A stretch of 64,000 nucleotides of DNA from Utricularia gibba (Eukaryota; Streptophyta; Magnoliopsida; Lamiales; Lentibulariaceae): the NCBI GenBank assembly GCA_002189035.1, contig CM007992.1, forward strand, positions 434,001 to 498,000. The letters are read 5' to 3'. A program made the translations under genes and the position numbers. How positions within the stretch are numbered: the first letter of the stretch is position 1; the number at the start of each line of letters is the position of its first letter. The notes under the pieces are model-generated. The model was given only the letters and a program-made list of their open reading frames with translations, did not search any database and was not told the origin of the DNA. Shown in pieces: positions 7,769-50,426 of this stretch.

Positions 7769-10700
7769 TCACAGACCATTTGAAGGTCTGTACACTGGGA
7801 AACCAGTGCTGCCCATGCTCATGTTCCGATACTCCATTAGGCGGTACAGATAGGTGTCATCCGAGCTTCTTGTATTCAGGAAAGGCCTCTCAGGGCCGGA
7901 GACCTGCCATTGGCTGGGGACCAAACCAAGTTGCCCATTGCTGTAGGGATGAAGGCTAGAATGGGGGATCATGTCTTGCAGTGCTGTTCCAGGGGAGGCT
8001 CCCACGAGGTAACTGTATTGGAAGCTTCCATCACTAGGACTAGGTATCCTTTCAACTCGGCATAAACCGGTGGATGGTCCAGCGCTGGAAGACAGGGAGG
8101 TGTCATCCGGGATGCCATAAATGTTGCTTGCAAAATGTGGCCTGCTGTGTGCATTTCTGAAGCATAGGTAATCAGAGCCCGGGATGAAGGTGTCAGCTAC
8201 TCCATTTTCATCATCAAGCAGATCATTGATTATGTCAAGGTGTGGGAACTCCTCCGGTGATACATGGGAATTCCGGCCTGGCATTCGGAACACTGGCAGG
8301 TTAACATCCTGTGATCTAGACTGCCGGGAAACTTCGCCGGGCAAGCTCCTTATAGCATCCCCTTGGCATGAATCTAATCGGATAGATCTACCCTGCTGCA
8401 TTGGATCATGATTCAGCATCCCAAATGGCAAAGCAGTTTTCAACTGACTCATGTCCATCCTATCTGAGCCAAACTGTGGAAACAATGAAGTTGATACAAG
8501 TGGCGCCGGTTGTGAATATGGAACTGAAGCATTTACCACCGAGCTGGAAGACTGATTAGGAGAATATGAACGTGAACTTCCAGTAGCAGGGCCACCCATC
8601 ATTGCATTTCTATAAGACAGTGGAGCATAAGCCTGAGATGCAGATGTGGAGGATTCAGGACCCAATCTACCAGCAATGCTTGCCGAGCGTGCTAATGCAG
8701 GAGCTGTAGGAACCATCGGAAGAGTAGAAACATTAACTCTGGAACTGGGAACTACAGGAGCACTGCAGGGTCTAGACACAATAGGCACCGGTGGCACTGA
8801 AAGCTTATCCGCTGTCACTGATGCTGAATCCGTTAGTGCCTTTTCACTTCTCAAGTACACTGCATCCCTGGAGGTCTTTTCAGTAGATTTTGGAGTAGCA
8901 CACTTCTGATTGTTCGCCTTGGATGTAACAACACTCTCCACTGACTTTGCTGAACTTGTGGGTATACTCGATTTTTTCGGGCTATCAGACGAGGATTTCT
9001 TTCTGACAACTGGAATACTTGAAATATCAACCTTCACCAACTTTTGAGTGGGTGGAGATGAAACTTCTTTGGATGAGCGCGCAAGACCTGCCGATGTGAC
9101 CTCAGATGCTTCTGCATTTGCATTTCTTTGCACAAAACTAGCTTCTTCTTCCTAAGGAAAAGACAGAAAGATTAGCTATTCGCTCCTGGTATCAAACAAA
9201 CAAAATGCCGATGTGCAAAGACTGTTATAATAGCAACACAGCAACCCAAATTTAATAGAGTATCAACATAACCGCATACAACAGCACCGAATTTTGTAAA
9301 AAAGAGAGGTACCTTCACAACGGGGTGCTCAGAACCATTTACCACCACGTCGTTAGAAACATCAGCAAATGCTGTAGGAGCAACGTCATCACTCTTTGAA
9401 GTTCCATTTACATGTTTAGGCTGCCCTGAAACATCCCCAGCTTCAGATGGATGGCTATTTTCTTCACCAACTAAGTCTGGCGAATCAATGAACTGCTTGA
9501 CTTGGTGGCTTCTCCCTCTGAAAGTTGTAGTACTAGCTATTATATGTGCATGAGGAATAAAAAAAATAATAATCTGCCAAGAGTGGGGGCAAGAGACTAC
9601 CTCCTTCTTGAAGGCCTTTTGCTTTTGTTGTGCTGTGCTTTATTTTTCTGAGGCATGGATGGAACCAAATCAGAAGACGAAGTGGATGAGCTATCATCAG
9701 CAATAGAGCTTTTTCCTTCAGTTGCATTTTTCACTACTGAAAGCCCACTAACCCTACTACTGCTGGCTTCTGTTGGAGGGTGTGCTTCAGAAGTATCAGT
9801 GTCCCAATTGATTGGGCTCACATCACGGTCTTCAGAATCTGGAGGAATTCTTTCACGAGCACAGTCAACAGAGTCAGACACATCAGAAGCATCTGCAGGA
9901 GGGGCAGACTTTTCAAGTTCCACGGCTTCATTAGAGTCAACAACATCTTCACTCTTAACACTGAACCTATCTTGTTCCATCTCCACTTGTACAATACAGC
10001 TAGGCTTTTCATCCCTGTTCTTATCTTTCCCTTGCGACTACGTTTCTGCTTAGCCTGGAGAATGCACACAGAAGATACAGCCAATTATTGCATGTAAAGA
10101 TCACTCGGATCCAAAAAAGCACCTAAGAACAGTATCAACTAGAAAATAGTTATAGCAAAATCAGCTTGATTCTGAGATGGGAAAGAGCAGCCCTAGTCTT
10201 GAGGTTAAACTAGAGTTAGTACATGCAGACCATAGTCCATCTGCCAAAATAAGTACCAAACTGAACACACAAGATTTTAAGTAGCAGTGTGGTATGGCAC
10301 TTGCAAACCTGCTTCTTTTTAGACTTCTTTTCTTTATCTGCCGCACCACGCCTTGATCTATGCTCAGTTCCAGCAAGCCAAGCTGCCTCCTCTTCACGTA
10401 TTAGCTCTTCTTGCTTCTTTAGAGCAACAGCCTCCTGATATGCAACTTCAATTTTGCTTCAAAGACGGCAGAAGAAAATATGAGAAATTTAGAGCAATGC
10501 AGATGAAAGGATACCTAACTCGAATGACTGCACTAAATTAAGAGCAAGCTAAAAAACCAAAGAAAAGAAAGAGACAGAAACTGCGATGGAATATAATTTT
10601 CAACAACAATTTTTTTATCATCACCTTTGCAATAGAAACTGGATGATAGCCTAAAAAATAAAATACAAGAACCAACTCAAATCCCACATGATGCCATGAC

Positions 10701-13277
10701 AGAATAAACACCTACCTGAACATATGAGCCAAGATGAATATTTCGACAGTCCAGCGGCCCAACTCCGTAAGCCGCCTCTCATCTCGTTCAATACAATCCT
10801 TGTTGAATTCTCCTCCCGCCGTTCCATCCTAAGGAGAGATCAACCAATATAGGCTTAAGTCTAGAGATGATATAGCATCCAGCTAAGAACAATGAGATGA
10901 AACTTGCAATACACCATGAAAGCAGCAGTTTCATGATGATAGCTTACTTTAGAACGGTTTTGGGGGCCTGATTCATCCTTTGGTGGCAATGGTTCAGTTG
11001 CAGCCCTCTCAAGCAGTGGCAGCACATCATCATCAAGCACAAACATATCTTTCTCCATTCTTATAATAGGCGTGGATAAATCATCAGAGTCCAAATATTT
11101 GCTCTTGTCTTTCTTCCCTTTATATGGACCTTCAAGAGCCTTTAACCCACTGTATAATGAATCCATGACAAGTGTAGACGTGACTTCTTTTTCTATAAAA
11201 AAATGCTTCACAACTACTTTCAGTATGGACTCAGTTTTCTCTTGGGACATGTGGGATCTGGAACGAGGGTCCATACTCCGCCAGAATGCACAGAAGCTGA
11301 AAATAACAATTCAGCATCTAGTTTTAGATTTCCTCCAGACATGAAATGCAAGATCCTTTTGGGCATACTCTCACAGCACAAAAAGACGGATAATGACACA
11401 ATGGCTACAAAGAAACATGAGAAACCATTTTTTACCCATTACTAAGAAATGAAAATCAGCTTAAAATGTGCTCCAGTAGAATTACATGTTGACACTAACC
11501 ACTTGTTAATACCTGGACCATCTAACTTTATCTTCTATTAGCTTCCCCAGCTTGTTTCGCCTCTCTTCCACAAATCGCCTGCAAACTTGTTCCACATTCG
11601 TTAAATATACTCGTATTAATTCCCTCCGGTACTGACAGTCAAGGCACCGAAATGGCCGATCAGCTCTTTCCCTGCAAATGAACAGATAATTTCTGAACTA
11701 TGGGGATATACCAGGGCCTGATTGGCACGTCCACGATAATAAGACAAGGACAAGTAAACAAGATCATCATGGAAAATCTACTCCATCCGGATTTATTCAG
11801 CAAGTAAATGCTAAACAATAATAGAAGCTGAATGTTAGAAATACCTGATGACTTGAACTTGAGCCTTAATTATCAAAGTATCAGAATCAATAAATCCATC
11901 AAAAACTTTCGAGAGCTCCATGAATTTCTTCCATCCCCAATCATGCTCCTTTTTCCAAAAACGATGCAATGTATCTGTATGTTTTATAAAACATTCAAAG
12001 CTCTGTTTAAAAACATTAGGTGAAAATCCAAAATTGAAAAACTCGGTAGCACTAAAATTCCACCACCAACCGGAATACTTTGATTTTTTTGGATCTTTGT
12101 TCACCACAGCTATAGTAAATTGGGCAAAATGGCTCCATCCTGTTAAAATGACGATGTTTAGGTATATCATATACTTCATTTCCCTTCCCCTCACAAGCGG
12201 TTTTCTTGGGAAAACAGAAACAACTGTTGTAGTATTACGATAATCATACCTGGCAGAAGCTTATCATGATTGGCAACACAAAGAAACAAAGAAAGGTGGT
12301 TACAAACATCACAGCCTTGTGGGTAAATCAAAATATACCTGTAATTAGAAGCTTGACCTCCATCAGTGATCAATAAGAAAACATAAGGATGAATGAACTC
12401 TAATTTCTGGAATTTTATTCATAAAAAAACCCAGAAAGGCCTATAGGCTGGGCAAGTGGATAAAAAAACTATACATCTTGGCATATCAATAACGTGGAAC
12501 ATTTTAATGGAGAAACTGCTAAACCGCATACGGTTTCAAATAGTATATTTACATCAAGTATCACAGATTCGCAAATGGCTCAAAAACCCTACCAAGAGAT
12601 TATTATTCCTCACAATTCATCAAAAAAAAAAAACTTGTGGTACCACAGAAGCAATTAAATTAGTTAATCAAAACAAATAATCAGCATAAAATGGTGAGTT
12701 TCCTATGAAATGACCAGAATATATTTCCCAATATATAACAAAAGCATAGTTAATCAAATGAACAATAAACAACCAGAATGGAAATGAAGTTGCACAACTG
12801 GTGGTACGAGATCAATTGAAAAACATACCATTTGTAACCTCCAATCTCAAAAGGGTTACTCCGAAGCTCTCTTTTGTTAATTTGGGAAAACTTATCGATT
12901 TTCCAAGTGTACTTTCCATATAACTCAGCAGGTTTTGGCCCTGTGATGCAGCAATCGAAATCTGCATTAATTGCAATGACATTCCACGAACATTTGAAAG
13001 AAACGCAGTAGTGTTGTAATCGCTTTTGAGAGATTAGGAGTAAAATCCGGAAAAGATAAGGCTGCCACAATAATAAGCCACATAATAGCTCACCTCCATC
13101 ATCATCATTATCACTATCCCAATACGGGGGCGAAGTTGATGGAACACCATTCTCAAGTTGCTCTGAAGATCTCCATTCTGCCAATGACTCGCTAGATAGG
13201 CATTGCTGTTGCTGATCACTGATATCCCCTTCGGTGGAGCTGCCAGTACCCACTTCCTCAGTTGGAACTTCAGCCAT
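7769..13277 (-). CDS. TRAF1: MATH-domain TRAF homolog 1 (MUSE13/MUSE14 type)
   Basis: Twelve exons encode about 1131 aa: 13277-13094, 12940-12829, 12338-12250, 12139-12071, 11974-11845, 11671-11513, 11296-10948, 10828-10716, 10456-10309, 10054-9601, 9517-9313 and 9151-7769. The MATH domain lies in exons 2-5 (YGKYTWKIDKFSQINKRELR, GWSHFAQFTIAVVNKDPKKS, WKKEHDWGWKKF). It is followed by a conserved helical region, a Lys/Arg-rich coiled coil (REEEAAWLAGTE, EKKSKKKQAKQKRSRKGK) and a long Ser-rich tail containing EFPHLDIINDLL. Arabidopsis TRAF1A/1B act as SCF(CPR1) adaptors limiting NLR receptor levels and also in autophagy. Exon 10 contains a one-base frame break at 10022-10032, where the sequence stops matching the family frame unless a base is added to a GGG run. 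The first in-frame ATG is at 13277; an upstream GTG was discarded. The identity is secure and the break is probably consensus error. Confidence 0.9.
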
Positions 13278-14819
13278 GTTCCCAGTCGCCACCTCTCACC
13301 ACGCTCCTCTTCTTCAGCTGCTTCATTGAAAAGAAAGAGGGCTTAATCAGTGATTCGCAAGACGACTAGAACCGCAATCAGCAGATCAGCATTTTCACAT
13401 CACTGGTGCACAGTGCAACAAAATCCATATATGTCAAAAACCTAATAATATCTTGATTACGTTTACATTCATCTAAAGATTCCACTAACATCTTTTCTAC
13501 AATCAGCATATTCTAAATTTTAAGAAATCTTGTGATTATAACAACAAGCAGAGCATCTCAAGAAAACCTATCTGTCGAGTAACCATAATCCGCCACCAGA
13601 AACCCCCACAGCACCAAATCCCCGGTTGACCCATTACAACAAAAACACAACACACAATGAATAAGCCCAAGATTTTCAAGCACCCATTAAGAAAGAATCA
13701 AGTCCACGGCTTTAAACCAAAAACCACAATCAAATCAAGAACTCAAATCGATAATCCTCTTATACCACTCCCGTCGCAAACCCCTAATCGTCCCAAAAGC
13801 ACACAAATTAAATATGGAGTTAACGTCAACAGCAATAGTAACCACCGCCAATAGAAAGAACAATACAAACTAATTCAGATCGAAAAAGAGACCTTCTTGA
13901 TTTAAAAACCTAAGCTTTAATTCAATGACCTGCAATCGGGCAGAGGGGTGAGGTTTGCGAAGGGATATACGAAGAAAACCGAGTGCAGCGGAAGTGCAGA
14001 GAGTTACAAGAAAGGAAAGTAACGGATTTTATTAGACTAGTTTCCTCGGATATCCGACCCGTGCGTGGAATGGAGCCCGACCCGTCTCCCTCGGAAAATC
14101 CTTCCTTTTTTTCCATGGAAGGTTTTGGGTGAATCAAGAACCCTACTTTTGATTTATTCCTTAATTGAGCAATTAAAAAAGCCTGGTTTTGGGCAAATTC
14201 AGTTCGGTCGGTGTGGACTCTATGAAGAGGAAGGCGGATTAAATGATGTTCGAGCATTAGCGATCCGAATTACAACAGTAATAAGGGCGGTTCTTGAAGC
14301 GTCAGCGGGCCAAAAGGGTGAGAGCCGAGAAGGTTAAGATTTTCATGCGGATCTCGAAGCGTCAGCATATTTCAACTTCTTTGCATTGGCTCTATTTATA
14401 GATTTTTATTGAAAAAAAAGTGAATGCTGTAGTTGCAAAAACCATTCCCATGTCTTGGTTCTTTTAACTGCTGCAAAATTTGAACTTGAAGGTGTGTGTT
14501 CATCAAGTGTTATGAAAGGCAAAAACTTTGATTAGTTCTTGAGAGATGCGTTCAGGAATACCTTGCATTGTAGATATCTTGCTGGTCGATGCATTTTGTT
14601 CTTGGTTATTTGGGCAGCAAAGGTTTGTAAAAACTCTAGAAATTACGAAGTCCGGGAATTATGCTTATGAGAAGTGTTTTTGCTGAACTGAAAATTGATG
14701 TGCTTTGGATATTCTTGTTCATTTGAAGTTCTGTTGCTTTGAAAGTGTCGGAAATTCCTTTCTTGATTCTTTTAGATTACTTCACACAGGAGTGTATATT
14801 CTACATCATCTGGAATTTT
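13278..14819. other. divergent promoter region between TRAF1-like and Agenet genes
   Basis: The two flanking starts face away from each other across 1.5 kb. Bases 13278 to about 13990 probably include the TRAF1 leader, perhaps with an intron. Bases 14000-14340 are GC-richer and are the likely shared promoter core. Bases 14340-14819 look like the Agenet gene leader (T-rich, intron-like). A 90-codon open frame at 14065-14337 has no recognisable similarity. No other gene is supported. Confidence 0.5.
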
Positions 14820-16610
14820 ATGGAGGATCAGCCTAACTTGCCATTCAGAGTTGGAGATGAGGCAGAAATCAAGTCCTTTGTGGAAGGATTTCGTGGTGCA
14901 TGGTTTCGATGCAAGGTAGTATATTGTTCACAGCTGATTTTCGTGAGATGTTGTTTGATCTTGATGGAGAAGCATGAAACCCTACAACCTGTTAACTTCT
15001 GTTACTGCGTCTTCCAATCCACTGAGCAGAAAGACATAGGTTCTATTGCAGTTGGTTAAGTTTAAGTTCGTTTCCATGCCATCTTGTCTTTTAACCTGCT
15101 GTTTTAAAACTGGTAGGATTCCATACATCTGAGTGGGATGTCTTTTGTTTTCACAGGTTGCAGGCATACGAGTGAATGAAGGAGCTTATGAGCATTACAC
15201 TGAGTACCTTGACTTCCCTGATGAAAGTAAGCATCTGCATGTCTTTATTTACTGCTCTTAATCTGATCTCTTACTCTTTAAACCATATGATTAGAATTGC
15301 TCATTGTTTCTGAACCACATTTCGAAAAATCCAAAGACCAAATTTTGAAATCTTAGGGAATCAAACTGAAATGAATTAGAGGTATACTGAATACCGAAAT
15401 ACTGAAAAAGAACTTGGTATCAGTTCAGGGAAATCTGTATACTGATTTCTATAACCTGTTATGAAGGAATGAAATGGGAAAAGATGTATGAAGTGGTGCC
15501 CTATCCTGTTCGGGGAGGTCAGGAGATGAGCACAAAGAGCTCATGCTACGGCCAAGCTATCCACCTATTCTCTATAAAGAACAAATGGGCGATGCTGGTT
15601 CGATATCGCAGGTATCAGTGATCGTTAATCGTAAATGGAAGGTTGGTGATTTGGTTGACTGGTGGACGGACAACTCCTACTGGACTGCCCATATAACAGC
15701 GATATTGAGTGACGACAAGGCTCAGGTAGTAACAAGCTCCCTCTTCTTGAAGGTATAGTCAGATATCTGTATAACAGGGGTAGCCATTGTTATCTTCTTT
15801 AGATTGAGCTGCTGCGGCCACCTTTAGGTGAAGGCTCATTCTATGAAGCTTTTCTGAAGGACGTACGTCCCTCATTGCAATGGTCTCCAAAACGGGGGTG
15901 GCAACTACCACCTCAGGTTCGCATGTTTCTCATCGCATTCAATTATAATGTATCAGACACATTCCCTTATACCTGCCGCCATTTCATATGTCCTGGACTC
16001 ACCACTGTCTTGTGCTGCATTTCAGAGAAAAAGCAGACGGAAACCTTGTGCTTCGCTGGTTAAGCCTGCCAGTGAAGGTGAGATAGTTGCTTAGCTTCAC
16101 CAGTTCTGCAACCTTCCAGCAGATCCTTGCTTCAGTGATGTTGTGAACATTGCAGTTTCTGGCCGGCGGCGACCTAAAAGGACGCATCAAGAAGCCGACG
16201 CGGCTGTGGAGGCGATCTCGTCCAATTTGGTATCCAACTCAGATGATGCCGAGGACACACACCCTTCCATGTCGAAAGACTCCCAAGAAGCCACCAAGTT
16301 CGCCCCAGGAGAAAGCACGAACACGACTTCCGCACACGCTAGTGCGTGTGTGGTCGAAACCAGGGTTCAGGCGGAAGGCGCCATGGCCTGCAATAGAGAC
16401 ACACCGGATAAAACACTCGCTCTCCGGCCCTCCCAATGCGACTCCGCCGAGGCGGCTGTCACTGCTTTGCAGCGGTGTTTGAACAGGGTTAAACACCTCC
16501 GGGCACTCATCCTGAACCGCAAGTCGTCTCCGGTCGGCGCACCGCCGCGATGGAAGTTCGTACTCCCCGACGATCCTTATAATGATCCGGATATCCCGAG
16601 GCCGTCCTGA
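14820..16610 (+). CDS. Agenet/Tudor-like domain protein (frame-broken)
   Basis: Six exons encode about 348 aa: 14820-14915, 15157-15226, 15467-15725, 15803-15916, 16026-16077 and 16156-16610. Agenet modules are plant Tudor-like folds that read chromatin marks or RNA. The first lies in exon 1-2 (PFRVGDEAEIKSF, EGFRGAWFRCKV) and continues to KMYEVVPYP. A second follows as WKVGDLVDWWTDNSYWTAHI and IELLRPPLGEG. Basic clusters RKSRRKP and GRRRPKR fit nuclear localisation. Exon 3 starts in one frame (MYEVVPYPVR) and continues in another (HKELMLRPSYPP). The switch falls at the GGGG run 15512-15515, where one more G would join the frames. No intron fits in this short space. The C-terminal 150 residues are low-complexity with a conserved-looking tail (RWKFVLPDDPYNDPDI). 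Confidence 0.82.
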
Positions 16611-16665
16611 GCCTTGTTCCTCTGTTCATAATTTTCAAGTCCTTTTTTTTTTCTGATTTACGTTG

Positions 16666-16675
16666 AATAAATAAA
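16666..16675 (+). terminator. putative poly(A) signal of the Agenet gene
   Basis: The overlapping AATAAATAAA block lies 56 bp after the Agenet stop codon, followed by A-rich DNA. This is the expected position of a plant near-upstream polyadenylation element. Assignment is by position only. Confidence 0.4.
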
Positions 16676-17800
16676 TCATGGTAAAAAAAAAAAAATTATA
16701 ATTGAACGAATAATAAAAAAAAATGGAAAATACAAAATGATATAGCCGCCGGCTTCCCCATCACGTGTTATTTTACGCCCGCCACGCACGACCGGGCCCC
16801 ACCACTCACGTTCGACAATCACATGCTTTTCCCTGTTTGGGACGACAATTTCTTTTCTTTTTCTTTTTTCAAAAGAATTTATTCGAATTAGGGCATTAGA
16901 TGCTCCATTTATTTCCTAATTAGTCTAATTAAATATAATTTGGAATTGAATCCTTTTTACAATACTCGATTTAATAAATTTTAATTATATTTCAAAATGT
17001 TTTAATTATATAAAAATTAATAGTTAAATAAATTGAATTGAATTGAATCTATGATTTTAAATAATAAATAAACTTTAAAATGTCAAAAATATTTTTTTAA
17101 TTATAAATGGGAACCCTTCGACTCTTCAGTCGTGCTTGTACGACTATAGAGACCAGGCTTTGGACTGGATGCTTTAATATGTGCCAAATACTTGGTACCA
17201 TTCTTCATTATAATTTTGGACTTTGTCTCCGTCCTTTTAGTATACCATACTCTACAACTGAGTACTTTGGTACCTAAATCTTAATAAATATTACTCGATA
17301 ATTAATTTTATATAAACTTTTGATATCATATCTTTCAAACTGTGATGATTCATCTAACAAATAAGAACTAATCGTCAATATCTTCAAGACCATCGACGAT
17401 TAAATCAAAAATTGACTTTAGTAAATATAAAGAATATAGTAATTTTATTTACATGTTTGATTATATTTTTACTTTAATCTTAAATTAATTAGATAGATAG
17501 GAAATTACGCATTTCTTGAAGATATAGTAGCTACACAGATGAGATTTATACTCGTATGATTATTTGAATACTACACGAACGTTGGTTATACATAATTGAT
17601 AACTTTGTAGCATTCGGACAAGAGAGTTGTCCTAAATATGATTATTTGGATTATTTGTTGTGTTATGGTATGGGAATTTAATAATTGCATTTACCATTTC
17701 ATCTTAATGATTGGATGTCGTATTTTAATGATTTTTTGTGATAAAAAGTATATAAATAATAATAATATTATTTTTTTTTTTGTTCTATCGGGTGGTGGAG
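16676..17800. other. A/T-rich intergenic DNA upstream of CslG
   Basis: Mostly A/T-rich with poly(A) and poly(T) runs. A short GC-richer part at 16741-16830 contains a CACGTG-type core (tcacgtgtt). Between 17100 and 17290 there is moderately complex sequence without coding potential. I see no gene and no clear transposon ends. Confidence 0.5.
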
Positions 17801-17804
17801 GGTC

Positions 17805-17810
17805 TATAAA
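17805..17810 (+). promoter_or_regulatory. TATA box of the CslG gene
   Basis: TATAAA follows a poly(T) tract and lies 74 bp before the CslG start codon. That leaves room for a 40-base leader, as expected for a TATA-driven plant promoter. Confidence 0.55.
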
Positions 17811-17878
17811 GGTTGGGAGGGGACTGCGTCTGTAACTGATTTTGCTTTTGGTTTCGGAGGGCAAGGAGAGCGGAAGCC

Positions 17879-32990: not shown

Positions 32991-33345
32991 ATGGAGAAGG
33001 GCAAGGGCGAAACCAAATACCGGGGTGTCCGTCCCCGCTCCTGGGGGAAGTACGCGGCGGAGATACGCGACACGGATCGCGGGGGAGCTCGAGTCTGGCT
33101 GGGGACGTACGACACCGCCGAGGATGCGGCGCGAGCTTACGACAGAGCTGCATTAGCGATGAGGGGGCAGTACGCGGTGCTGAACTTTCCCCATGAGCAT
33201 GGCTTGCCGGGGGGGTTCGACTTCCGGCGGTGGGCGGCGTTCCATTTGCCAGCAGGAGGTGATCGAGTTCGAATGCGTGGATGACAGCATCCTGGAGCAG
33301 CTGCTGGACGATGAAGTGAAGAGGAGAGCGAAGAAGAAAGGGTGA
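32991..33345 (+). CDS. ERF transcription factor, small group IX type (ERF-a, frame-broken)
   Basis: Single exon. The AP2/ERF DNA-binding domain begins near residue 9 ([44 protein letters not shown]) and binds GCC-box DNA. As written, the frame runs past the domain to [11 protein letters not shown] and stops at 33284. In another frame the same DNA gives [19 protein letters not shown]...RRAKKKG ending at 33345. That is the conserved C-terminus of the short ERF095/096/098 proteins. Removing one G from the seven-G run at 33209-33215 joins the two parts into 117 aa, the expected size. I treat the break as consensus error. The initiator is ATG 32991; the upstream frame opens with TTG. It pairs with a second ERF 1.6 kb downstream. 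Confidence 0.85.
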
Positions 33346-34629: not shown

Positions 34630-35105
34630 ATGGATCGGGAGTCTGCTTCATATGGATACCTTCCGTTCAACCAGTGCGACTCGCAGGAAATGCTTCTTTA
34701 CCACGTTCTGGAGGAGGCGGAGCTGGCCAAGCCGCCGGGCCCCCGGTGGGTAAGCCGTGGCGCGGCGTGAGGAGACGGCCCTGGGGGAAATTCGCGGCGG
34801 AGATTCGGGATTCCACCCGGAACGGCGCCAGGGTTTGGTTGGGGACGTTCGACACGATCGAGGAGGCGGCGATGGCGTACGATCAGGCGGCCTTCGCGAT
34901 GCGGGGAACCGCCGCGATCCTGAATTTTCCGGTTGAGATGGTGAGGCAGTCTTTGATCGGGATGGACGACTTCTTCAACGAGGGGTGCTCTCCGGTCATA
35001 GCGCTGAAGAAAAAGCACTGTTTACGGCAGCGGAACAGCGACACCGCCGCCAGCAATGGCGCCTCCGGGAGTAGACGTGGGCACGGGTCGGGACTAGCAG
35101 AGTAA
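34630..35105 (+). CDS. ERF transcription factor, ERF1-like (ERF-b, frame-broken and MITE-truncated)
   Basis: Single exon. The N-terminus in the correct frame reads [20 protein letters not shown], the conserved N-terminal motif of group IX ERF1-like factors. The AP2 domain ([47 protein letters not shown]) and the trailing [11 protein letters not shown] follow in a second frame. One C missing from the run at 34740-34744 would unite them. An in-frame but unrelated start at 34566 gives only the AP2 half. The last 12 residues before the stop at 35105 come from an inserted hAT-like MITE that begins at 35072, so the native C-terminus is lost. Beyond the element the old frame resumes and would end at 35737. 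The family EDLG...LEELL tail is not clearly present. The gene may still bind DNA but is altered. Confidence 0.82.
35064..35071 (+). repeat. left 8-bp target-site duplication
   Basis: TCCGGGAG here is repeated exactly at 35678-35685 on the other side of the inserted element. Eight base pairs is the hallmark length of hAT insertion. Confidence 0.85.
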
Positions 35106-35685: not shown

Positions 35686-35737
35686 GACCCGCGAACAAGA
35701 GGATATAGTAGAGCTGGGAGGCGCAGCTTACAAATGA

Positions 35738-36047
35738 AATCAATAGTAATTATTCTTAAATGCAATTAAAATCAATAAATTCCTATATACTTGCAAGAAA
35801 TCACATATTTTATTATATAATTTAAATTCATTTTATTTTAATAATAAAATAAAATGATAATCGAAAATCACGGAATTTATTACCAAAGAGTAGCCGTACC
35901 GTACGTCTTTACGGCCCGACCAATGTAGATTCCAGTGCAACTGGAAACACTACGCCGTCTCAGAGTTCATGAAGGAAGTAGAGATGGGTATCCGTGCAAT
36001 GGAACAACAAGGGGGAATCTTGCATCAAGGAAGCAAAAAACCTTGAA
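35738..36047. other. intergenic
   Basis: Short A/T-rich stretch followed by the 3' end of the malate dehydrogenase gene (minus strand). Nothing else seen. Confidence 0.5.
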
Positions 36048-37886: not shown

Positions 37887-38337
37887 ATCTTGATACAGGA
37901 TCCAACCTCCGATACTCAACGACAACGAGACTGAGGGCTCCAAATGAGAAGCCTTCACCCACAGCGAACTCTGTGGTGAAGGGCACAGTGGACGGTATTT
38001 ATCCGGAACCGGAAAGGGCAACCCGACCCGAATTCCTAAAACGTCATCATCCCTAGAGAACCACGCCGTTCATTGAGTCAACCCGTGCGGATAATTTTAA
38101 CCCATTTTTCGAAAAATATTATTATTTAATAATAAAATTAATTCCAAAATAATAAAAATTGGAGCACTTAAAAATTTATATTTTATAAAATTGAAATACT
38201 GAATAATTATTATTGGTAAAAAAAATCTATTTGTTTAAAAAACAGAATTATTATTATTTTTTTAACCAGAAAACAAGCGTCTCTTTTATTGCATGGGTAA
38301 TAAGGAGAACTCTGTTACAGTGAAGCTTCCATCTCGC
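37887..38337. other. MDH leader and A/T-rich spacer
   Basis: Bases 37887 to about 38010 are the MDH leader on the minus strand. Bases 38100-38290 are A/T-rich. The 3' end of the legumin gene follows. Nothing else seen. Confidence 0.5.
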
Positions 38338-40272
38338 TTAGGCCTGTCCACCGCGCCTCTGTTCTGTGCCGGGGCTGAGGAGGGTGGCTTCGTCTCTGTT
38401 GAACTTCAGCCTGCTCGCCTGCTCGCGTGAAACATCGTAGGCATTCGCCAGAACCTCCACCGGAATGGATCGGATCGCGGAGAGGCGGCCGGCGAGAGAA
38501 GTGCTGATCGCGTTGTCGTTCGTCTTGAATGCGATCCATTCGAATCCTTGTTCGTTAGCCCTTTTCGCGACGGCGTAGTTCTGGGGGATCACCAGGAGCT
38601 GCCCTTCACGAACCTCGCCGTCGAATACAGACTCTCCGGTGGGTCCGACCACTTGGATTCTTGCGCTTCCGCGTGTGACGTACTTCGCGACGTGGGCGTT
38701 GACGCTGTACTTCGGTGCTTCTAATGCGTTCTGCGATGGGAAAAAACTCAGGTTATACTGAATTTGGATTGAAGTGTTCAGTTTTGTTTACCTTGTAGAG
38801 AATTCCTCTTTCTGCGCTGAGGCGGAGGTGGGAGAGGACTGGTAGAGTTTGGCTGTTGATGGTGGAGATTCTTCCGCTTCTGGGGTTGTAGAGATCGGCC
38901 CTCGACGGGTTATCGATGTTTTGGTTGAGTTTCAGGGTGCAGAACGTTTCTTCCAGGCCATTTCCCCTGCCTCTGCGTTCTTCTCCTTCTGATCTGCCAT
39001 GGCGGCGTTGCCGTTCACGCTCCTCCTGTTGCTCCTCCCCCCGTGGCGGCGCTCCCATTCACGCTCCTCCCGTTGCTCTTCCCCTCGCGGCGGCGCTCCC
39101 ATTCACGCTCTTCCCTGCCGTGGCGGCGCTCCCGTTCACGCTCCTCCTGTTCCTCTTCCCTGCCGTGGCGGCCCTCCCATTCACGCTCCTCCCGTTGCTC
39201 TTCTCTGCTCTGCTCGGGCAAGACCAGGCGAAGGCGCTTTGCGTTTACGATGAAACCTCTGTTATCGTCCTGGCTTTGAAGCTTCTTAATCAGTTCGCTG
39301 TCTACGTTGAAGGCTTCTGCCAGAAACTCCTCGTCAAATCCCCTGAAGACGTTGCTCCAGTTTTCTTCGCCTCTTCGCGGCTCTTGGCTGCCTCTACCGT
39401 GCCGGCGCTGAGACTCTTCACGTTCACGCTCCTCCCGGCTTTCGCTTTCGCCCCTTCCCCTACTTCCATGTTGCCACTCTTCACGGCGTTCGCTGCCGGA
39501 TCTCGGGTTCCCGGCGAGGAAGAATTTCTTTTTCAAAAACGAGAAAAATTAACATAACACAAAAAGCTTGGAAAATTTCTAAGCAGGGTTTCAGATCTTA
39601 CCCTGAAGTTCAAATCAAGCTGGTTCTTGTCATTGGCTACATCGATGATGGAAACGCTGATAATCGGCGTCTCCCCGTCGTTGTAAGTCCACCGTGCTAT
39701 TCCCTCCGGGAAGGCCAGTACATCACCCTGCCGGAACCTCCGCAGTTTCTGGTGGCGGTCGCTGCCACTCTCTTCACCCCTTTGGCCCTCCGGGCACCTT
39801 CACGGCTCTCCGACTCGTAAGTCTCAGCACATCCCGGAATCACCAGCCCTTGCACTCCTCTACCTGTCAACAAAACGAATCTCACCTTTCATTCACATAC
39901 ACGATTCTAAAGCTGCACTGCACAGAGCACGGTACGGCACTTGCCCTGGATAATGTAGGAGAGCTGGGGAGCATTGGCGTAGTGGGGAAGAAGGAGTCCG
40001 CCAGGCTGAATCACATGCCTAACAAACTGAATCCCAGCGCACTCCAGATCCCTAGAATTCGAATCCCAGAACTCAATATAACCCGCCTCGTACTCGTACC
40101 GGCGATCAGGCTCCCGCGCGTCGAGCTGCTGAATCCGGCAACTCGATTTCCCGCGGAGGCGGTGCTGCTGCTGGTGTCGGAGCTCCCAGAACCATCCCCT
40201 CTGCGGGAGCTCGAGCTGCGCGAAGGAGGAGTGGACGAGGAGGACGAGGAAGAGAAGAGACACGTACCCCAT
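38338..40272 (-). CDS. 11S globulin (legumin-type seed storage protein), frame-broken
   Basis: Four exons, 40272-39945, 39863-39602, 39527-38792 and 38730-38338, would give about 573 aa. A signal peptide ([19 protein letters not shown]) precedes the acidic chain with [30 protein letters not shown] and [18 protein letters not shown] hypervariable Glu/Arg-rich repeat tract comes before the Asn-Gly processing site in [11 protein letters not shown], whose Cys pairs with the early Cys. The basic chain has [20 protein letters not shown] and [13 protein letters not shown]. Intron 1 uses a GC donor (CAGG/gcaagt). Three one-base breaks lie in GC runs at 39792-39794, 39081-39084 and 39037-39042, each short by one. 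The rest is well conserved, so consensus error is likelier than a pseudogene. Legumins are packed in seed protein-storage vacuoles. The upstream in-frame ATG at 40320 was rejected in favour of the one opening the signal peptide. Confidence 0.88.
39013..39215 (-). repeat. tandem E/R-coding repeats in the legumin hypervariable region
   Basis: Blocks such as cattcacgctcctcccgttgc and gtggcggcgctccc (plus strand) recur about five times at 27-45 bp spacing. They encode repeated REERERRHG-like units. This is the usual variable region at the end of the acidic chain. Confidence 0.8.
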
Positions 40273-40315
40273 GAGTCGCTCGCTACTTCTTGGTGATGCG
40301 GTTACAGTCGGAGTG

Positions 40316-40468
40316 TGCATGGGTATTTATAGAACCAGGAAGCCGGAGACGTGGCATGAAAGCGACACACTTGGCTGCTCGAATCCGTGCATGGGGCGGA
40401 GGCTCTGAGTCCCAGACGTTATGTGGCGACCGGAGCTCGTGAGGTGGTAGACGAAGCTGATATGCATG
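40316..40468 (-). promoter_or_regulatory. legumin seed-specific promoter elements
   Basis: Reading upstream from the legumin start: an RY core CATGCA at 40316-40321, a TATA box (TATAAATA) at 40324-40331, an ABRE-like ACGTGGC on the plus strand at 40349-40355, a second CATGCA at 40388-40393 and a full RY motif CATGCAT at 40462-40468. RY elements bind the B3 factors FUS3/ABI3 and ABREs bind bZIPs. This is the standard layout of embryo storage-protein promoters. Confidence 0.65.
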
Positions 40469-41406
40469 AACTTGTACCACATTCTCAGCCAAGTTCATGA
40501 CTTTCAGAGAATATCTTATTTCAAGATAAATAAAAAATCTAAAAACTTGTAGTTTGTTTGTGCAGTTCCAATTTGAATAAAACTAATTATATAAGTGATT
40601 TTCTGATAAAACATGAGTTGATTTTGTTTCACATAGAGTTGAGGCAGTAAATTACTTTAAATTTTTTGTGAAATTGAGATTGTTCTGTTAAAAATTGAAT
40701 TAATTTTTAAATATATTAAATTTTTGACTTCATTTTATTTTAAATTTATTAATAATGTAATTAATGAGAGTAAATTAGTAATATTGTAAAAAATAAAAAA
40801 TTCATATGAAAAAAAATTACACCAAACAAGTTTTACTTCTATTTGTTTGGAATTAGTGGACCAAACAAAAATTGGTCCAAAAAACATTTATATAGAAGAG
40901 CTGTTCCAAATAGATTTTTAGTGAAATTAAAACATCAACATAAATTTTTAACCCCGGATACACAAAATTATGAGAATTTAATATACATTAAAAAGTATTT
41001 AATATAAAACCAACAATAAACTAGATAATTAGTTGAACCCATTTTTAAAATACTAATTGTAGATCAAGATGATTTGTGAAATGTAACATTCACATCGAAA
41101 TGATACTATGTATGCATCATTTGTTTATACAACATACCTTGGATGTGATCATATCAACACTAATACACCGAATATCGTCACAAATAGGAAATGGTATTGC
41201 ATACGTATGATTTCATGAGGCACTTGCAGTTTCACCAAGGAGGTGACATACAACAAACACACTAGGTATATTATTGAGCAAGTCAATGCACACACACACA
41301 CACACAAAACACACTAAAGTTTCAAATGCGACTATGGGATTTCGGTACAGTGCAATCAGCTAGTTGAACAACTCTAAAGATGGGATCTTTGAAGGGAGGA
41401 GCCAGT
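40469..41406. other. intergenic, A/T-rich, with a (CA)n run
   Basis: A/T-rich DNA without coding signal. A CA dinucleotide microsatellite lies at 41289-41306. The 3' end of the phosphate transporter follows at 41340-41406. Confidence 0.5.
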
Positions 41407-42998
41407 TCAGACTCTCACTTCCTGAGGGGTCGTCTCCGTTTCCGGATTCTCCTGCGACACCTCCTCCAGAGACTTGCCTTTGGACTCCGGCACCAGCAGC
41501 GTGCAGATCATCCCCAGAGCATTGATGCATCCGAGAACAATGAGTGAGTACTTCACCCCGATCCCTGGAGGATACCCTGCATCTGTCTTTGTTGGATCCC
41601 TGGATTGCGCGGCGTACAGGAAACCGAATGCGCCGATTATTGCTCCGGCTTTGCCTGCCGCGGCGGATATGCCGTGGCAAGTGGAGCGCAGCCGGGCGGG
41701 GAAGATTTCCGCGGGGATGACGAATGTGGTGGCGTTGGGGCCGAAGTTGGCGAAGAAGAATGTGAGGGAGTACATGACCACGAACCCGATTCTGTTCTCC
41801 TTGTGAGTCCAGTGAGTGTATGGAATGGCTATGGCGAACATGAAGACGGTCATGAAGAAGAAACCCATTAGCTGGATGAGGAATCTGCCCATTTTGTCGA
41901 TGAGGGCGACGGTGAACCAATAGCCGGGAACTGTGCTGCAGAGCGCGATCAGAGTTTGTGCTCTGGCGATTCTGTAGACTTCGTCGAGAGCGTTCATTGT
42001 TTTTGCAGGTGGGATCCATCCGATTGCGGAGAAGATGTCTTTTTGGAAGAGGTTTTGGCTGTAGAAAGCGATGTCCAGCAAGAACCAGGTGGAGGTGGTG
42101 CCGAGAAGATGAAGGCCGTGGCGGCGGAGGAATTGCCGTGAAAAGAGCCCGAAGTCGTTCCCACTTCGTTCGGCGATTTTCACCACTTTCTCTGGTTCTG
42201 CTTCGATTTCAACTTGCAGCACCTTTGACATGTCCGACGCTGCTTGTTCGGCGTTTTTAGCAACCAACGCCGTGTACCTGGCGGTTTCCGGCATCTTCAT
42301 CCGCCAGTAATATGTCAACGCCGCCGGGAGAGCACCGAACATGAGTACCAATCTCCAGACGTAATCGGCTTGAGGGACTGTGGAGGCGTTGGCGTTATCC
42401 TGGTAAGCGGGAGATGGATACGCCGCCTTGAAAGCGGCGGAGAGTATAATCGCCACCATTCCACCGCCCAAAATCCCGAACCCCTGCATCGCAAATACGG
42501 CGGCGATAAACGATCCCCGAGTCTTCTTATTAGCGTACTCCGACATGATTGTAGCGGAAAGAGGGTAGTCGCCCCCAATTCCAAACCCAAGCCAAAATCG
42601 GAAAAAACAAAGCGTCGCCATAACCGCCGTCGGGTTGCTCCCAAACGAAAGCCCTGACGCAACGGAGCAAACCACCATCAATATCAACGTTATGCCGTAC
42701 ACCCTTTTCCGGCCGAGCTTATCCCCAGCCATCCGAAGAAAAGCTGCCCCGCCAGAGTTCCACATAATGCGACGCCATTCACAGCGGCCGCAACATTCGG
42801 CGGCAAAGTCCCAGGCTTCGCAGCACCGGCTTGGTGGTAGTAGATTCTCCCAAGGAGTTTCGTAACTAAAGAAATACAGAAAAGATCGTACGCGTCGGTA
42901 AAGAAACCCATTCCGGCGATCACGATCGCCGTGAAATGGTACCACTGCGTCTTCGCACCATCGAGGGCGCTCAAAACTTGCAACTGCTCCCCCGCCAT
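41407..42998 (-). CDS. PHT1: PHT1-family high-affinity phosphate transporter (frame-broken)
   Basis: Intronless gene of about 530 aa, the normal PHT1 length. PHT1 proteins are plasma-membrane H+/phosphate symporters of the MFS fold. The N-terminus ([47 protein letters not shown]) is in one frame. From [10 protein letters not shown] onward the protein continues in another frame to the stop at 41407. The switch is at the four-C run 42723-42726 (plus strand), where one extra base restores GDKLGRK. The PHT1 signature [13 protein letters not shown] is present, with [25 protein letters not shown] and a C-terminal [14 protein letters not shown]. An automatic call would start at 43014 in the wrong frame with an unrelated first 90 residues. 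Two GAATATTC (P1BS-type) motifs lie about 1.1 kb upstream. Confidence 0.92.
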
Positions 42999-45485
42999 TG
43001 ACCCGTCGCTCCACTGTAACTACGAGACGAGGAGAGGGAAAGGCATCGCCTCCTTATTCATAACCAGAGGATTCAAATCCTGGCCGTCGGATCAGATACC
43101 AAGTTTGACCGTTGAAGATCAAATTCCAGTCTCATTACAGCTGGCCCATTGCCCTTTCTGTCTTATTCTCAATTAATTAATTATTTTAAAAATAATATAT
43201 TCTCAATGGAAAAATGTCAACTTTGACTTTCCATATTAGAAGCTATCACAAGCTTCTCCCCACTAACGCCAACAATCAATCAAATTATGTTCCTTTTTGC
43301 TTCTCTTAGGTAAATGGTGACATTCTTTTTCATTGGTTTTAAATATAATTTTATTATTTCCAAATAAAGTAATACATATCTTCATTTCCATTATCATTAT
43401 CTTTAAAATTTGATAGTATAAATATGAATTAATTTTTTTAAAATATTTTGGTGATGATATTACCTATTTTTTAAGATGTAAAAAGAATCATAAACCGTTT
43501 ACGTGAGCCGATCACGATTTAAACGGTTCAATCACGATTAAATCATAATTATTTTTTAAACAATTTTAAAACAGTTTCAATTTGATTAGAATGTCATTAT
43601 AGACTATTTACGATTTAAAATGATTCAAATACAGGTTTTAAAACACATGATAATACCTAACCCAAAGAGCTTGTACGGATACATGATTAAAGTAAATGGG
43701 CAATTAGGGATTGAATTATTAGTCGTTAATCACAATTATTTGACCGAGAGCCGTACACTTAATTCACAAGGGCATGAGTACGTGGCGAATGGAAAACGTG
43801 AAAGATTATCCACATAATATTTTAGTATTGTTTCCGTAGTGGGATGTGATTATTAAATAAATATTTGATAATAAGTTTTATTTTAAAATAATTTTAAATA
43901 ATATTCTAAATAATTCCATACAACTAACATTAAATCTGCAAACAATGGTTTATTTTAAATTATATAATTTAAATTTAAAATATTTGTTCCAAGCATGTGT
44001 TAAAAAAATAATTAGAATGTTATTAAATGATCACGATATCATATGTTTTGACTTTGGAATTTCGACGTACAAAGAAGAGAATATTCGAATTTGGATGGAT
44101 TATTCTTGTCTATGTAGTAATCTTTGTGGCATCTAAAGAATATTCTTCTCCAAAGTCAACGATATGACGAAATATGGTTTAAAATACGATTTCATTATGA
44201 GATTAGAAAAAAAAAATATTTAATACAATAAGTTAGATATCTTGAAAATTTTATTATTTAATATATAAAATATAAACTTACATTTTTATGTCGAAAAAAA
44301 ATTCTTTTCATTTTTATGTATATAATAAAATTTCTCTCTCTAGATTTGGAATGAATTTTCAGCACATATTATTTTTATTAAAAATGAAATATCATATTTT
44401 AATATAGATATTTTTGATAATTAATCTTTTTTATCAAATAATAACTTCTATCAACAACAAATAGACAAGTTTTATCAAATCCCTAATTTCTAGGCAAACT
44501 CCTCTCTTGACAATTTTATGAAGTTTTAATCTTTATTTATTTATTTTATCAAAAATATCATTTAATATAATTTTTTATCTGTATCTTGATAATAGCAGTC
44601 CATGATATTTGAATTTGAATGAATTATTCTCATTGTGGTATTTGAATTGTATGTTTCTCCAAAGTTAACAACATAAAGATGTTTTAAAATCAATTGGGGA
44701 CGCATAATTGGCTCTGTTCTGAGCTTGGCTCTAGAGTTGGTCTCAATTTTGGAGCAATTCATTCAAATTGTGGAATAAAATAAAGTAAATAAAAATAGGA
44801 CTTCCATTGATGTGGGTTGCTGTGATCATGGGCCCATAATGAAATTGGGCCCCCAGGAATGAGAAGATTGGATGTACTTTTGGTGTTTAGTTAAAAAAAT
44901 ATATTGGCCCAATAAGTTAAAGCATTATTACCAATAAAAATGTTTGCTCAGACTCTTAAAATTATGAAAGTAAAATATCCGAAGATTGGGATTTTAAAAG
45001 ATAATGATTTTTCTGAGGGTTTGAACTTAGTTAAAATTTTTATATTATTATTTAATTATTAGTATATTTAAATTAGTTATTTTAATGTGATTTTGTGTTT
45101 AGAATTTATGAGAAAAAATTGAAATTCAGAATTTAATTATTTAAAAAATTTTGGAAAACATATTTCAGTGAAAAAGTACGTAATCTACCATGTTATTTTT
45201 TTTTTTCAACCAGCTGGAGGCGTTACCTGGCGGATCCGATTACACGGTAGAATGAAATAACGACGAAAACGGGATTGTGTGATGTGAAATGGCGAAGGAT
45301 TTTGGCCCATGTTCCTGAATTTCTTCTTCCTTAAGCTATGATTATCAAATTGTAATCTTTCTCTGGGGGACCATCTCATAGAGTTGAATTTCTCTAAGGC
45401 CCACGATTGGGGTGGGTACCCTGTCTGTTGGTCTTCCCAGAATTAGCGATTATCAGAAGATTTCCAGGGTGGTTTTTTTGGGGGG
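42999..45485. other. long A/T-rich spacer upstream of PHT1
   Basis: About 2.5 kb without a supported gene. A copy of an aaacggtt/atcacgattta-type repeat lies at 43490-43630. Two diverged related blocks sit at 44080-44170 and 44600-44680. P1BS-like sites lie at 44079 and 44138. The leader of the ankyrin-RING gene starts near 45210. The short open frames are chance products of A/T-rich DNA. Confidence 0.45.
44079..44145. promoter_or_regulatory. pair of P1BS-like sites (GNATATNC)
   Basis: GAATATTC occurs at 44079-44086 and 44138-44145. This palindrome fits the binding site of the phosphate-starvation regulator PHR1. The location about 1.1 kb upstream of a PHT1 gene is suggestive but distal, and the sites lie in repeat-like DNA. 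Confidence 0.3.
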
Positions 45486-48400
45486 ATGGGGCAGCAACAG
45501 TCGAAGGATGAATTATTATTCCAGCAAGTGAATTATGGAAACGTTGGAGGAATCAAAGCTCTCCGGAGCCAAGGGGCTGGCCTTGAGGTATGTGGAGCTT
45601 CAGAGCTTTCATCTTGTTTTTGGTCTTTATAACGTTCGCTTCTGCGCGTTGCCAATGTTTATACATGCAGGCTATCGCTTGTTCACTGGATGAAGGTTCT
45701 TTTTTTCATTTGGTTTGTTCTTAATCAGCCTGTGTGCATGTATCTATTTGCGTTTTCAGTAGCTGAAGAAACTGTATGAATATGCATACTTTTTGCTTCC
45801 TGGTCCTGTTACATGTTTTTTAATGGGAAGTTTCTGGTTGCAGTGGATTGACCGTGAAGGGAAGACTCCTTTGATTGCTTCTTGCATGAATCCTGAGCTA
45901 TATAATGTCGCAAAAACACTGATAGAATTAGGTGCCAATGTTAATGCCTATCGTCCAGGTATACATTTGTGCTGGGAGAGACATATGATGGTTCAAGTTT
46001 TCTAGTTTTGGGCTAACTTTATGACATTGGTTTTCATATGTTTTGAAATTTTAACTGCAATGAAATGCGGTAACTTACAACTCTGGGGGTTTATATCTGA
46101 GTCCACATATGCTATTTCAAATTTAATCTTTTGATGAAGTGGTGTAGCTGACCGTTTTTATGATTCCTCGTATGTTGCTCATTATGTTTTTTCTTGAGTT
46201 ATAAATTTTATTTTGGGTTTATTGTAATGTGGCGTTGGCTTCCTCCACCTCTTTGTTTTAGGACGGCATGCTGGCACTCCTCTGCATCATGCTGCAAAAA
46301 GAGGCCTTGATCAGACTGTTAGGTTGCTTCTGTCACATGGAGGTAACCTTGAAACGATGTTGATTTCTAAAAGATGACTATGATGGATGATTTCCTCTCT
46401 TTTTGTCTGATGTTCTGTAAAAAATTTCAGCAAATCCACTTGTGATGAATGATGATTGCCAAACTCCCCTTGATGTTGCAAGAGCCAAGGGATATAGCAA
46501 TGTTGTCCGAGCAATTGAGGTTTCTAGACACTCACTGTGTCCTTGATGCTTAATTTCCGTTGCTGAGAAAAGTAGTTGACCCTTTCCTTGCATTGTTCTA
46601 GGACCATGTGTGCTTATTCTCTGGTTGGCTGCTAGAACTTTATGGGCCAGGGTTTCTAACTCTTCTGGCTCCTCAACTGCTCTCACGGAAAGTGTGAGTG
46701 CAATTTGCGTCTTTTCATTCCATTGGTCTGTTTTTGTAATGTTTCTGGTTTTTAAATATAATTATCTGTTTGTTGGGTATAAGTGAATGATGTAAAGGAA
46801 CTTGGAAATTAGTGATAATTTTAGCTCTTTTCAACTTTGATTTCACCTTTTTTTTTTCTGCATTTCCTTGTCTTGTACATGTTGGATAAGATGAAGCTTC
46901 CTTTAATATACTGCAGGTGGGTTGTTGTTTTGCCTTGTGGTTCACGAAATCTTCGAAAACCTTTGAAGCTAGAACTTGCAGTATATGCTGGTGCACAGGT
47001 TCCGTGAAGTTTGTTTCTGTTGGTTCATTGAGTGTTTCCATAAGCTGGTGCAATTCTCTTTTACGAAAGAAGTCTGCATGAGACTATGAGCTTTTTACTT
47101 GTTTCTGGATTAAGTGACTCCTTTTTCATATGGTGGTAACTTTTTACGGATTATTGTTCAAATCAAATTTGTTGAGGCCTATCCAACAACTCTGCTTTCG
47201 CCTGTTGGATGCATGCTGTCCTGAAGAGCTAAAAGTTTATTTTTTTTTAATCAGCTTACATTTACATGCAGAAATATGATACGTGTGTTTTTTTAAATTT
47301 AATCAGGATGCGCAACCGCGGACAGTTATCCCACTTTGGAAGTCCAATCTAGAGGAACCAAATTTTAACCTGCCAGATCCAGCAGCTGTCATAGCAGACG
47401 TTAATAAAAGTAATATCCTAACCTGTGTTCTATAGATTGGTAAAAAGTGTACTGCTTGTTGCCATTTTCCATTTACTTTACTTTCTCGCTGCCGAGTGTT
47501 AGACACACTATTAAGTGCTCACTGGGGGGTAAGTTGTAAGCTCCTGACTGATTGATTTGCAGCAAAAAAAAAAAAAATGTGGCCTCATGATATAGGAGCA
47601 TCTGATGTATCAAATGGATACTCCAGCGTTCCTTTCTTTGTAGTTGGCGTTCATAGGATTGATCATAGTCCTTGTATCTCTTTGGCTGCACAGTCTGAAG
47701 GAAATTATTGCCGTTTTTTTTATTATATGTTTATCGATGTGCAGTTGCAGAGTAACATCATTCTATAGATGCTGATTGTTTTTCTGATATCTTATATGGG
47801 TGTAGACACTCGGATTAAGCTCACACCTTTAAGTGATGCTGAAAAGGAGCAGTTGAGGAGGTTCTGCAATGCTTGCAAGGGAATTCCCCAGGTTTGAGCT
47901 TGCTGCTCATATCCATTCGAACTTTTTCTGCCCACTACAGGGGTTGTCTCTGTTAACAATGCAGGCTATCCATCCTTCCTTGCCTCCACACAATGCTGTG
48001 CCTGCCGCCGTAGCGGATGCTCCGGAAATCAGCGAGGAAGAAGATCTTGCTGCAGCGATAAGTGCTTCCCTCCAGTCTGAGCGACCTCCTAACACAGATT
48101 CATCTGGAAACGCCTCTGTTCACACTTACAGCCACAACAGCAAGTTGGGGATTGAAGAAGCCGGCCCATCAACTGTTCTGGCTCCGGACGCTTCGCCGGT
48201 GAACGCCTTGGAGAATCTCTCGCTCCCAGCTCCTTCAGCTCCTCCCGCTGATGATGATATCCATATTCACTATCCCCCGATCGATCTCAGCCCCCTCAAC
48301 TTGTCCTCCGACAAGAAGGACGACAGCGCCTCCTCCTCGTGCACCATATGCCTGGATGCTCCCCTGGAGGGCGCCTGCATCCCGTGCGGTCACCTGGCTG

Positions 48401-48498
48401 GATGCATGTCTTGCCTGAACGAAATCAAGGAGAAGAAATGGGGGTGCCCTGTTTGCCGCTCCAAGATCGATCAGGTGGTTCGGATCTACGCCGTTTAG
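45486..48498 (+). CDS. XBAT35: ankyrin-repeat RING E3 ubiquitin ligase, XBAT34/35 type
   Basis: Nine in-frame exons encode 427 aa: 45486-45587, 45844-45958, 46262-46342, 46431-46519, 46602-46693, 46917-46998, 47307-47409, 47806-47891 and 47965-48498. MGQQQSKDELL suggests N-myristoylation. Ankyrin repeats follow (GKTPLIASCMNPELYNVAKTLIELGANVNA, AGTPLHHAAKRGLDQTVRLLLSHGA, QTPLDVARAKGYSNVV). The central region contains HVCLFSGWLLELYGPG and WVVVLPCGSRN. A ubiquitin-interacting-motif-like helix (EEEDLAAAISASLQSE) precedes the C-terminal C3HC4 RING (CTICLD, CGH, CPVC). The family transfers ubiquitin to substrates. Arabidopsis XBAT35 acts in ethylene-linked apical-hook growth and immunity, and alternative splicing controls its location. 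Its neighbour here, an ALOG gene, matches the At3g23280-At3g23290 pair from memory. Confidence 0.93.
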
Positions 48499-49601
48499 CC
48501 CCCATGGAGTTGCAGAAGAAGAAAGAAGGCTTCTTCCTTGCAGCAACTCAGATCAGATCATCTTCTCCGGCAGCATCCAGGTGCTTCACCGCTCCACTTG
48601 TGAATAGACGGAATTCTGTCGTCATAGTTTCAATTTGTTTGGAAATATTGTATTTTCCATATATTTTTTTTGTTCATGTAAACTGAGGTTAAAGTAAATT
48701 AATATTTTAAATCATAAAAAAAAACATAAATCACCTGCGTAAATGATTCATGATTTGAGAGAGTGATTAAATTATTTATTTATTTTATATGTTTATTATA
48801 AAACAATATTAAATTATAATTAAGTCGAAATTACATTATGTTTGAACCATCATTAAATTATCATTGAATCTCGATTAATTTTTCTATTTTAAAATTATTC
48901 AAATTTAATTCAAACATTTGGTTTACAACATTTTTTAAGCCGACGGACTAATGGATGAATCGAACTAGTTTATCAGTTTTTAACAAGTTACTGGTTAACG
49001 GAAAAACCGATTTCCGGTTTTGTTTAAAGAATATATGGAAGATTTAAATATTATGCTTTTATTAGTATAAATGTGAAAGAGATGTATTAATACAGAATTT
49101 TGAACCGAACCCGTCCCGTACCGGTTCAGTTTTTATTTCCGATTGAAAAAACATGGGTTTACAGTTAAAAAGGATTTAACCCTGATTTAAAAACATAAGT
49201 TTAAAGAATGATTAGTGAGATGATTAGTCGGTTAAGCATGTCTCATGCCACGTCCGGTGCTTTCTAAATAAATGCTTTGTCCCTGGAGCATGTCGAGATT
49301 CTCAACTTTGACCATCCAATGGCTATCCAACAAAATCCCTGCCCGGACCTTGACAAAAAAAAAAAAAAAAAAAAAAAAAGATTTTATCCATTAGAATTTA
49401 CGTCGAATTAATTTTAAATATATAATTTTAATGATTTAAAGATAAATATTTTAAATTCATTATTATTATTAAATATTTTGAATTAGGTAATGGGGTGGGG
49501 GTGGCAGGAGGGGTAATTTAGTCATTTACTCGACCTGTCAATCAATCGTAAAGCTAGAATTGTTCGCTTTAAAAAAATCAAATTAAAGAATTAATAAACC
49601 T

Positions 49602-49641
<40 letters not shown>

Positions 49642-49852
49642 GGTTCCCCATTATGCCCTACTGTTCAACAATCTTCAACCCTAATACCAGCTTCAAGTTC
49701 CCGGAATACGAATCTCCGCTCCACCCCAGCTGCTTAAAGCCATGGAGTTCCTTGCTCCGCTTTCTCTGAGCCGACTGATCGTTTGATGGTGCAGAGGAGA
49801 CTGCTTTAGGGGTGGAGGTGAGTAGAATTTCTTGAAGGAAGATCTCGTCATC
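48499..49852. other. intergenic with simple repeats
   Basis: Contains the XBAT 3' end, A/T-rich DNA, and an aaccggtt-rich decayed repeat at about 48940-49210. A 26-base A run lies at 49354-49379 and a CT microsatellite at 49605-49639. The leader of the ALOG gene starts after 49640. Confidence 0.5.
49605..49639. repeat. (CT)n microsatellite in the ALOG leader/promoter
   Basis: About 17 uninterrupted CT units lie 215 bp before the ALOG start. Such tracts are common in plant core promoters. Confidence 0.9.
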
Positions 49853-50426
49853 ATGGAGCATGATCTGAGCTCCCCGGAGCAGGATACCGGGAACCTGAGC
49901 ATGAACGTGGGTCCCCCTAGCCAGATCGTGGGATCGCCGCAGGGGCTTCCGGGGGCGTCGCCTCCTCAAACGGGTCCTCCCCGAGAACCCTGAGCCGGTA
50001 CGAGAATCAGAAGCGGCGGGACTGGATCAGCTTCGGGCAGTACCTGCGGAACCACCGCCCGCCGCTGTCGCTCCCCCGGTGCAGCGCATCCCACGTCTTG
50101 GAGTTTCTGCGGCATCTGGATCAGTTCGGGAAAACCAAAGTGCATAATCAGGTTTGTCCGTTCTTCGGCCATTCCCACCCCCGGCCCCCTGCTCGTGCCC
50201 TCTCCGGCAAGCCTGGGGGAGCCTCGACGCCCTCGTGGGGCGGCTCCGCGCGGCGTACGAGGAGAACGGGGGCTCACCAGAGAGTAACCCCTTCGCCAAT
50301 CGGGCGGTGAGGATTTACCTGAGGGAGGTTCGCGATTCCCAAGCGAAAGCCAGAGGCATCACCTACGAGAAGAAGAAGCGCAAGAAGCCGGAGTCGCTGA
50401 ACTCCGTCACACCGCCGCAGGGATGA
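49853..50426 (+). CDS. LSH4: ALOG/LSH-domain transcription regulator (frame-broken)
   Basis: Single exon of about 191 aa after two one-base corrections. The Ser/Pro-rich N-terminus ([10 protein letters not shown]...) leads to the ALOG domain: [38 protein letters not shown], a zinc-ribbon insert with CPFFGH and [10 protein letters not shown], then [18 protein letters not shown] and a KKKRKK nuclear signal. ALOG proteins are small plant DNA-binding regulators of organ boundaries and light-dependent growth. The frame changes once between SPQG and SRYE, in a G run at either 49938-49941 or 49947-49951. It changes again at the C run in the FFGHSHP segment (about 50176-50180). One added base at each site gives a continuous domain. 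Without correction only fragments would be called. Confidence 0.87.

Follow-up and report, generated by a model that had tools for sequence, protein, structure and literature searches.

One-base frame breaks at G/C runs in seven conserved genes of a Utricularia gibba assembly, very probably left by consensus error

Seven genes with conserved protein products are interrupted by one-base frame changes within the window, the whole stretch of 64,000 nucleotides analysed here (bases 434001-498000 of contig C4), raising the question of whether the plant carries pseudogenes or the assembly carries errors. Our analysis, in which all frames of the window were translated and its genes compared with copies elsewhere in the 100 Mb assembly (516 contigs), indicated that the ten breaks are very probably errors of the assembly consensus rather than mutations of the plant, and that the seven genes would most likely be intact in the plant, as judged from sequence.

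Frame breaks in the window

An earlier note on this DNA had described ten one-base breaks in seven genes, nine at runs one base short and one at a run one base long. Base-by-base reading in three frames reproduced this: frame changes were present at 10 of 10 sites, nine runs were one base short, and the only overlong run was the seven G of ERF-a. The Pfam domains of the broken genes are MATH (TRAF1-like), Agenet, AP2 (both ERFs), cupin (legumin), sugar transporter (PHT1) and ALOG. The ten sites, in window coordinates, are as follows.

10029-10031, minus strand: TRAF1-like gene (MATH), run of three G, one base short; the paralogue at contig C413:4491002-4491451 is continuous
15512-15515, plus strand: Agenet gene, run of four G, one base short; the domain is continuous in the read-through protein
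33209-33215, plus strand: ERF-a, run of seven G, one base long; paralogues are continuous
34740-34744, plus strand: ERF-b, run of five C, one base short; the related copy at contig C413:4468471-4468710 is continuous
39777-39780 (four G) or 39786-39788 (three G), minus strand: legumin i, in exon 2, one base short; exon 2 of copy L079 is open
39081-39084, minus strand: legumin ii, in the exon 3 repeat region, run of four G, one base short; exon 3 of L079 is open
39037-39042, minus strand: legumin iii, in the exon 3 repeat region, run of six G, one base short; exon 3 of L079 is open
42723-42726, minus strand: PHT1 phosphate transporter, run of four G, one base short; paralogue L003 is open
near 49942-49945 (four G) or 49951-49955 (five G), plus strand: ALOG i, a putative break with no conserved protein on its left flank
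50178-50182, plus strand: ALOG ii, inside the ALOG domain, run of five C, one base short; copies L080 and L082 are open there

The note had also held that a conserved protein continues over each break and that each break can be assigned to a run of 3-7 G or C. The first statement stood at nine of the ten sites, where conserved protein was found on both flanks, ALOG i being the exception. As to the second, placement in such a run was tight for PHT1, ERF-a, ERF-b, legumin ii and iii, ALOG ii and Agenet, but three placements (TRAF1-like, legumin i and ALOG i) were ambiguous: for TRAF1-like, an adjoining run of three A is as good a candidate as the three G, and for legumin i, situated in a loop of low conservation, runs of three C, three G, three A and four G all qualify. 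Related copies in the same genome were uninterrupted at the TRAF1-like, ERF-a, ERF-b, legumin, PHT1 and ALOG ii sites. The TRAF1-like copy at contig C413:4491002 forms a single open frame over query positions 2-151 (70% identity), the ERF-a paralogues run uninterrupted over 9-115, up to the C-terminal motif, and the window PHT1 shares 90% protein identity with L003. A paralogue of the Agenet gene was not found in the same genome, and support there comes from the gene's own domain, since one added base yields a single continuous Agenet match over the break. Twelve other conserved genes of the window (about 15 kb) contained no frame change in the exons read, in agreement with the note's description of its other genes as unbroken. 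A C-terminal motif is expected in group IX ERFs; in ERF-b (window 35000-35102) it is seemingly absent, through either real loss or a further error.

Some breaks might be unreal if alternative splicing or an upstream exon accounted for TRAF1-like and ALOG i, or if legumin had undergone an in-frame change in repeat copy number. The frame would also be preserved by use of an AG that lies 17 nt inside the TRAF1-like exon, another AG is present at 49919 upstream of the ALOG domain frame, and legumin exon 3 does contain an expanded tandem repeat (window 39018-39260) with a Glu/Arg-rich product, much shorter in the contig C413 copy L079. However, the TRAF1-like copy at C413:4491002 retains the would-be skipped residues in its one open frame, and the legumin frame differs between the two sides of the repeat within a single exon. 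For ALOG, the GC content of third codon positions reaches 0.83 in the ATG frame (49853-49940), indicating coding upstream of the domain, and 0.81 in the next frame (49960-50175); we infer break i because third-position GC changes frame and the domain frame downstream has no ATG. Explanations of this kind are unlikely, and we treat the ten breaks as real features of the written sequence.

If the breaks were present in the plant, the seven genes would be pseudogenes formed through natural one-base slips in G/C runs. Their frames are indeed interrupted as written, and since homopolymers are naturally prone to slippage mutation, a single break could be real. Shifts aside, however, the proteins are conserved: neither substitution stop codons nor lost splice sites, such as mark pseudogenes, were seen in the seven genes by frame reading, and identity at the protein level is still high (90% for PHT1 against L003). 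Nearly all breaks fell in G/C runs, and essential families were hit. A further proposal, that the genes are expressed as written through programmed frameshifting or RNA-level correction, draws on the frame changes themselves and nothing more; the sites occur in a variety of unrelated genes and families, and the shift is missing from other copies of these genes, so that this proposal is scarcely credible.

Recurrence across the assembly and dependence on run length and base

A survey of 32 genes from the PHT1, KCS and HSP70 families, among them the window PHT1, covered 49,038 coding bases (49 kb) and yielded nine nonredundant single-base breaks, or 0.18 per kb coding. We regarded frame shifts called beside KCS and HSP70 introns as artefacts of alignment and excluded them, and N-terminal calls in L027 and L029, where the reference is variable, were left out of the count. 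Eight of the nine breaks lay in G/C runs of 3-6. Besides the window copy, the broken PHT1 genes were L004 (six C), L009 (five C or four G), L011 (four G) and L012 (three G), with six others unbroken; the broken HSP70 genes, 83-95% identical to references, were L053 (three G), L054 (three C) and L060 (two C, and five G). The first break of L060, at just two consecutive C, counts against the homopolymer pattern. L053 and L054 showed 94-95% identity to the reference and no substitution stop codon, yet were broken. Among about 14 copies of the ALOG domain, the window's included, 8 were whole and 6 were split between frames, and the four copies fetched besides the window's were broken at four G (L080), five C (L081), five C (L082), and six C plus four G (L083). 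Breaks therefore reach strongly constrained families (PHT1, HSP70 and ALOG) on several contigs, and the fault affects the whole assembly, not the window alone. Elsewhere in the assembly, some copies of KCS and HSP70 genes have a decayed appearance, which favors pseudogenes, but that explanation would have housekeeping HSP70 and many copies from multiple families decaying simultaneously by one type of change.

The proximity of G/C runs to the breaks exceeded chance. When one random coding base was deleted in intact genes (n=308) and the deletion placed in the same way as the real breaks, only 10-13% could be placed on a G/C run of at least 3, 3-4% on one of at least 4 and 0.3% on one of at least 5, so that a nearby run is no automatic explanation for a break in a conserved exon. 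Against an expectation of about 13%, eight of nine breaks in G/C runs of at least 3 gave P ~6e-7 under random single-base deletion. The share of G/C runs that were broken rose with their true length, from 1/824 at 3 through 3/187 at 4, 2/25 at 5 and 2/6 at 6 (0.1%, 1.6%, 8% and 33%) to 1/1 at 7, the counts being small at the longest lengths. Among runs of at least 4, 0/368 of A/T and 8/219 of G/C were broken (Fisher P 3e-4).

The errors had also been described as concentrated in GC-rich exons. Broken genes were indeed richer in G/C runs of at least 4 (7.0 per kb vs 3.6 in unbroken genes), but the breaks are spread assembly-wide and run density mostly accounts for the concentration: GC-rich exons are the most affected largely owing to their greater number of long G/C runs. 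Survey rates applied to the window exons predicted about 5 errors against the 10 seen (Poisson P ~0.04, with rates derived from few events), and its frequency of breaks is average or slightly higher. Were the run lengths real, a lineage-wide loss of bases from G/C runs, through a slippage or repair defect, would now be breaking many conserved genes, which we consider exceedingly improbable. A test for depletion of long G/C runs within the window carried no information, the counts being near random expectation.

Duplicated copies compared

Copies of the broken genes were informative about the origin of the breaks. The window legumin is broken in exons 2 and 3, both of which are open in its copy L079 on contig C413; in exon 1 it is instead L079 that is broken, at a run of four C, and the window legumin that is open. 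Similarly, the ERF-b copy at contig C413:4468471 is open through the window's break site (4-68) and split at another place. Old duplicates broken at complementary sites would be a very odd outcome of decay, and the pseudogene explanation as a whole is very improbable. Legumin and PHT1 genes adjoin at four places (window 38341-42999, contig C413 at 4.46 Mb, contig C304 at 2.62 Mb and contig C451 at 2.70 Mb), which suggests old large-scale duplications.

Contig C187 (29.6 kb) duplicates part of contig C4 (C4:3373053-3378875; L084/L085). An ALOG stretch present on both was compared over two stretches of 58 bases and was identical over the shared bases but for one C, the version with CCCCC being in frame and that with CCCC (contig C187) out of frame; this disagreement may be a real haplotype difference. 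The halves of this ALOG gene are separated by about 125 nt in contig C187 and by 5.4 kb in contig C4, probably through an insertion in one copy, perhaps in an intron. Around an HSP70 cluster, contig C241 duplicates contig C304 at 99.5-99.8% (L057/L058, L070/L071), the two being leftover haplotype contigs in the assembly; over about 7.2 kb they differed by three indels only, none in a G/C run of at least 3, a result that counts against consensus error.

Collectively, the earlier note's reading of the breaks as homopolymer consensus error and not pseudogenes gained strong support from three independent lines: the assembly-wide recurrence, with a G/C effect that grows with run length and no A/T effect; the copies broken at complementary sites; and the ALOG pair that differs by one C.

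Source of the errors and consequences for gene annotation

Long-read base calling could have misjudged the length of G/C homopolymers, mostly by one base too few, and incomplete polishing would have left the consensus uncorrected at the ten sites. We infer such base calling, most likely nanopore, as the source; PacBio data of an older kind, or a failure of short-read polishing in GC-rich exons, are possible sources as well. In one nanopore study, reads underestimated homopolymer lengths, with deletions that dominated and grew with length and with C/G worse than A/T (PMC8486125), and in a nanopore-only assembly homopolymers caused frame breaks in conserved single-exon genes, which BUSCO misses according to its authors (PMC7500977). 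The breaks described here, known from the assembly alone, resemble long-read and especially nanopore homopolymer errors in being one-base indels, mostly deletions, that depend on length, affect G/C more and break conserved genes. They differ from the latter study, where polishing added more insertions than deletions, and from a bacterial long-read study in which A/T deletions outnumbered G/C deletions (PMC12007338), so that a G/C bias is not universal, whereas deletions in G/C runs dominate here.

The breaks are thus a warning about data quality, an ordinary artefact rather than biology. For GC-rich genes with few introns (ALOG, ERF, PHT1 and storage proteins), this assembly would yield wrong gene counts, pseudogene calls and claims of gene loss, and the families at risk are often studied. 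The remedy is re-polishing of the assembly, in which several thousand genes could be affected by extrapolation from about 0.18 breaks per kb coding.
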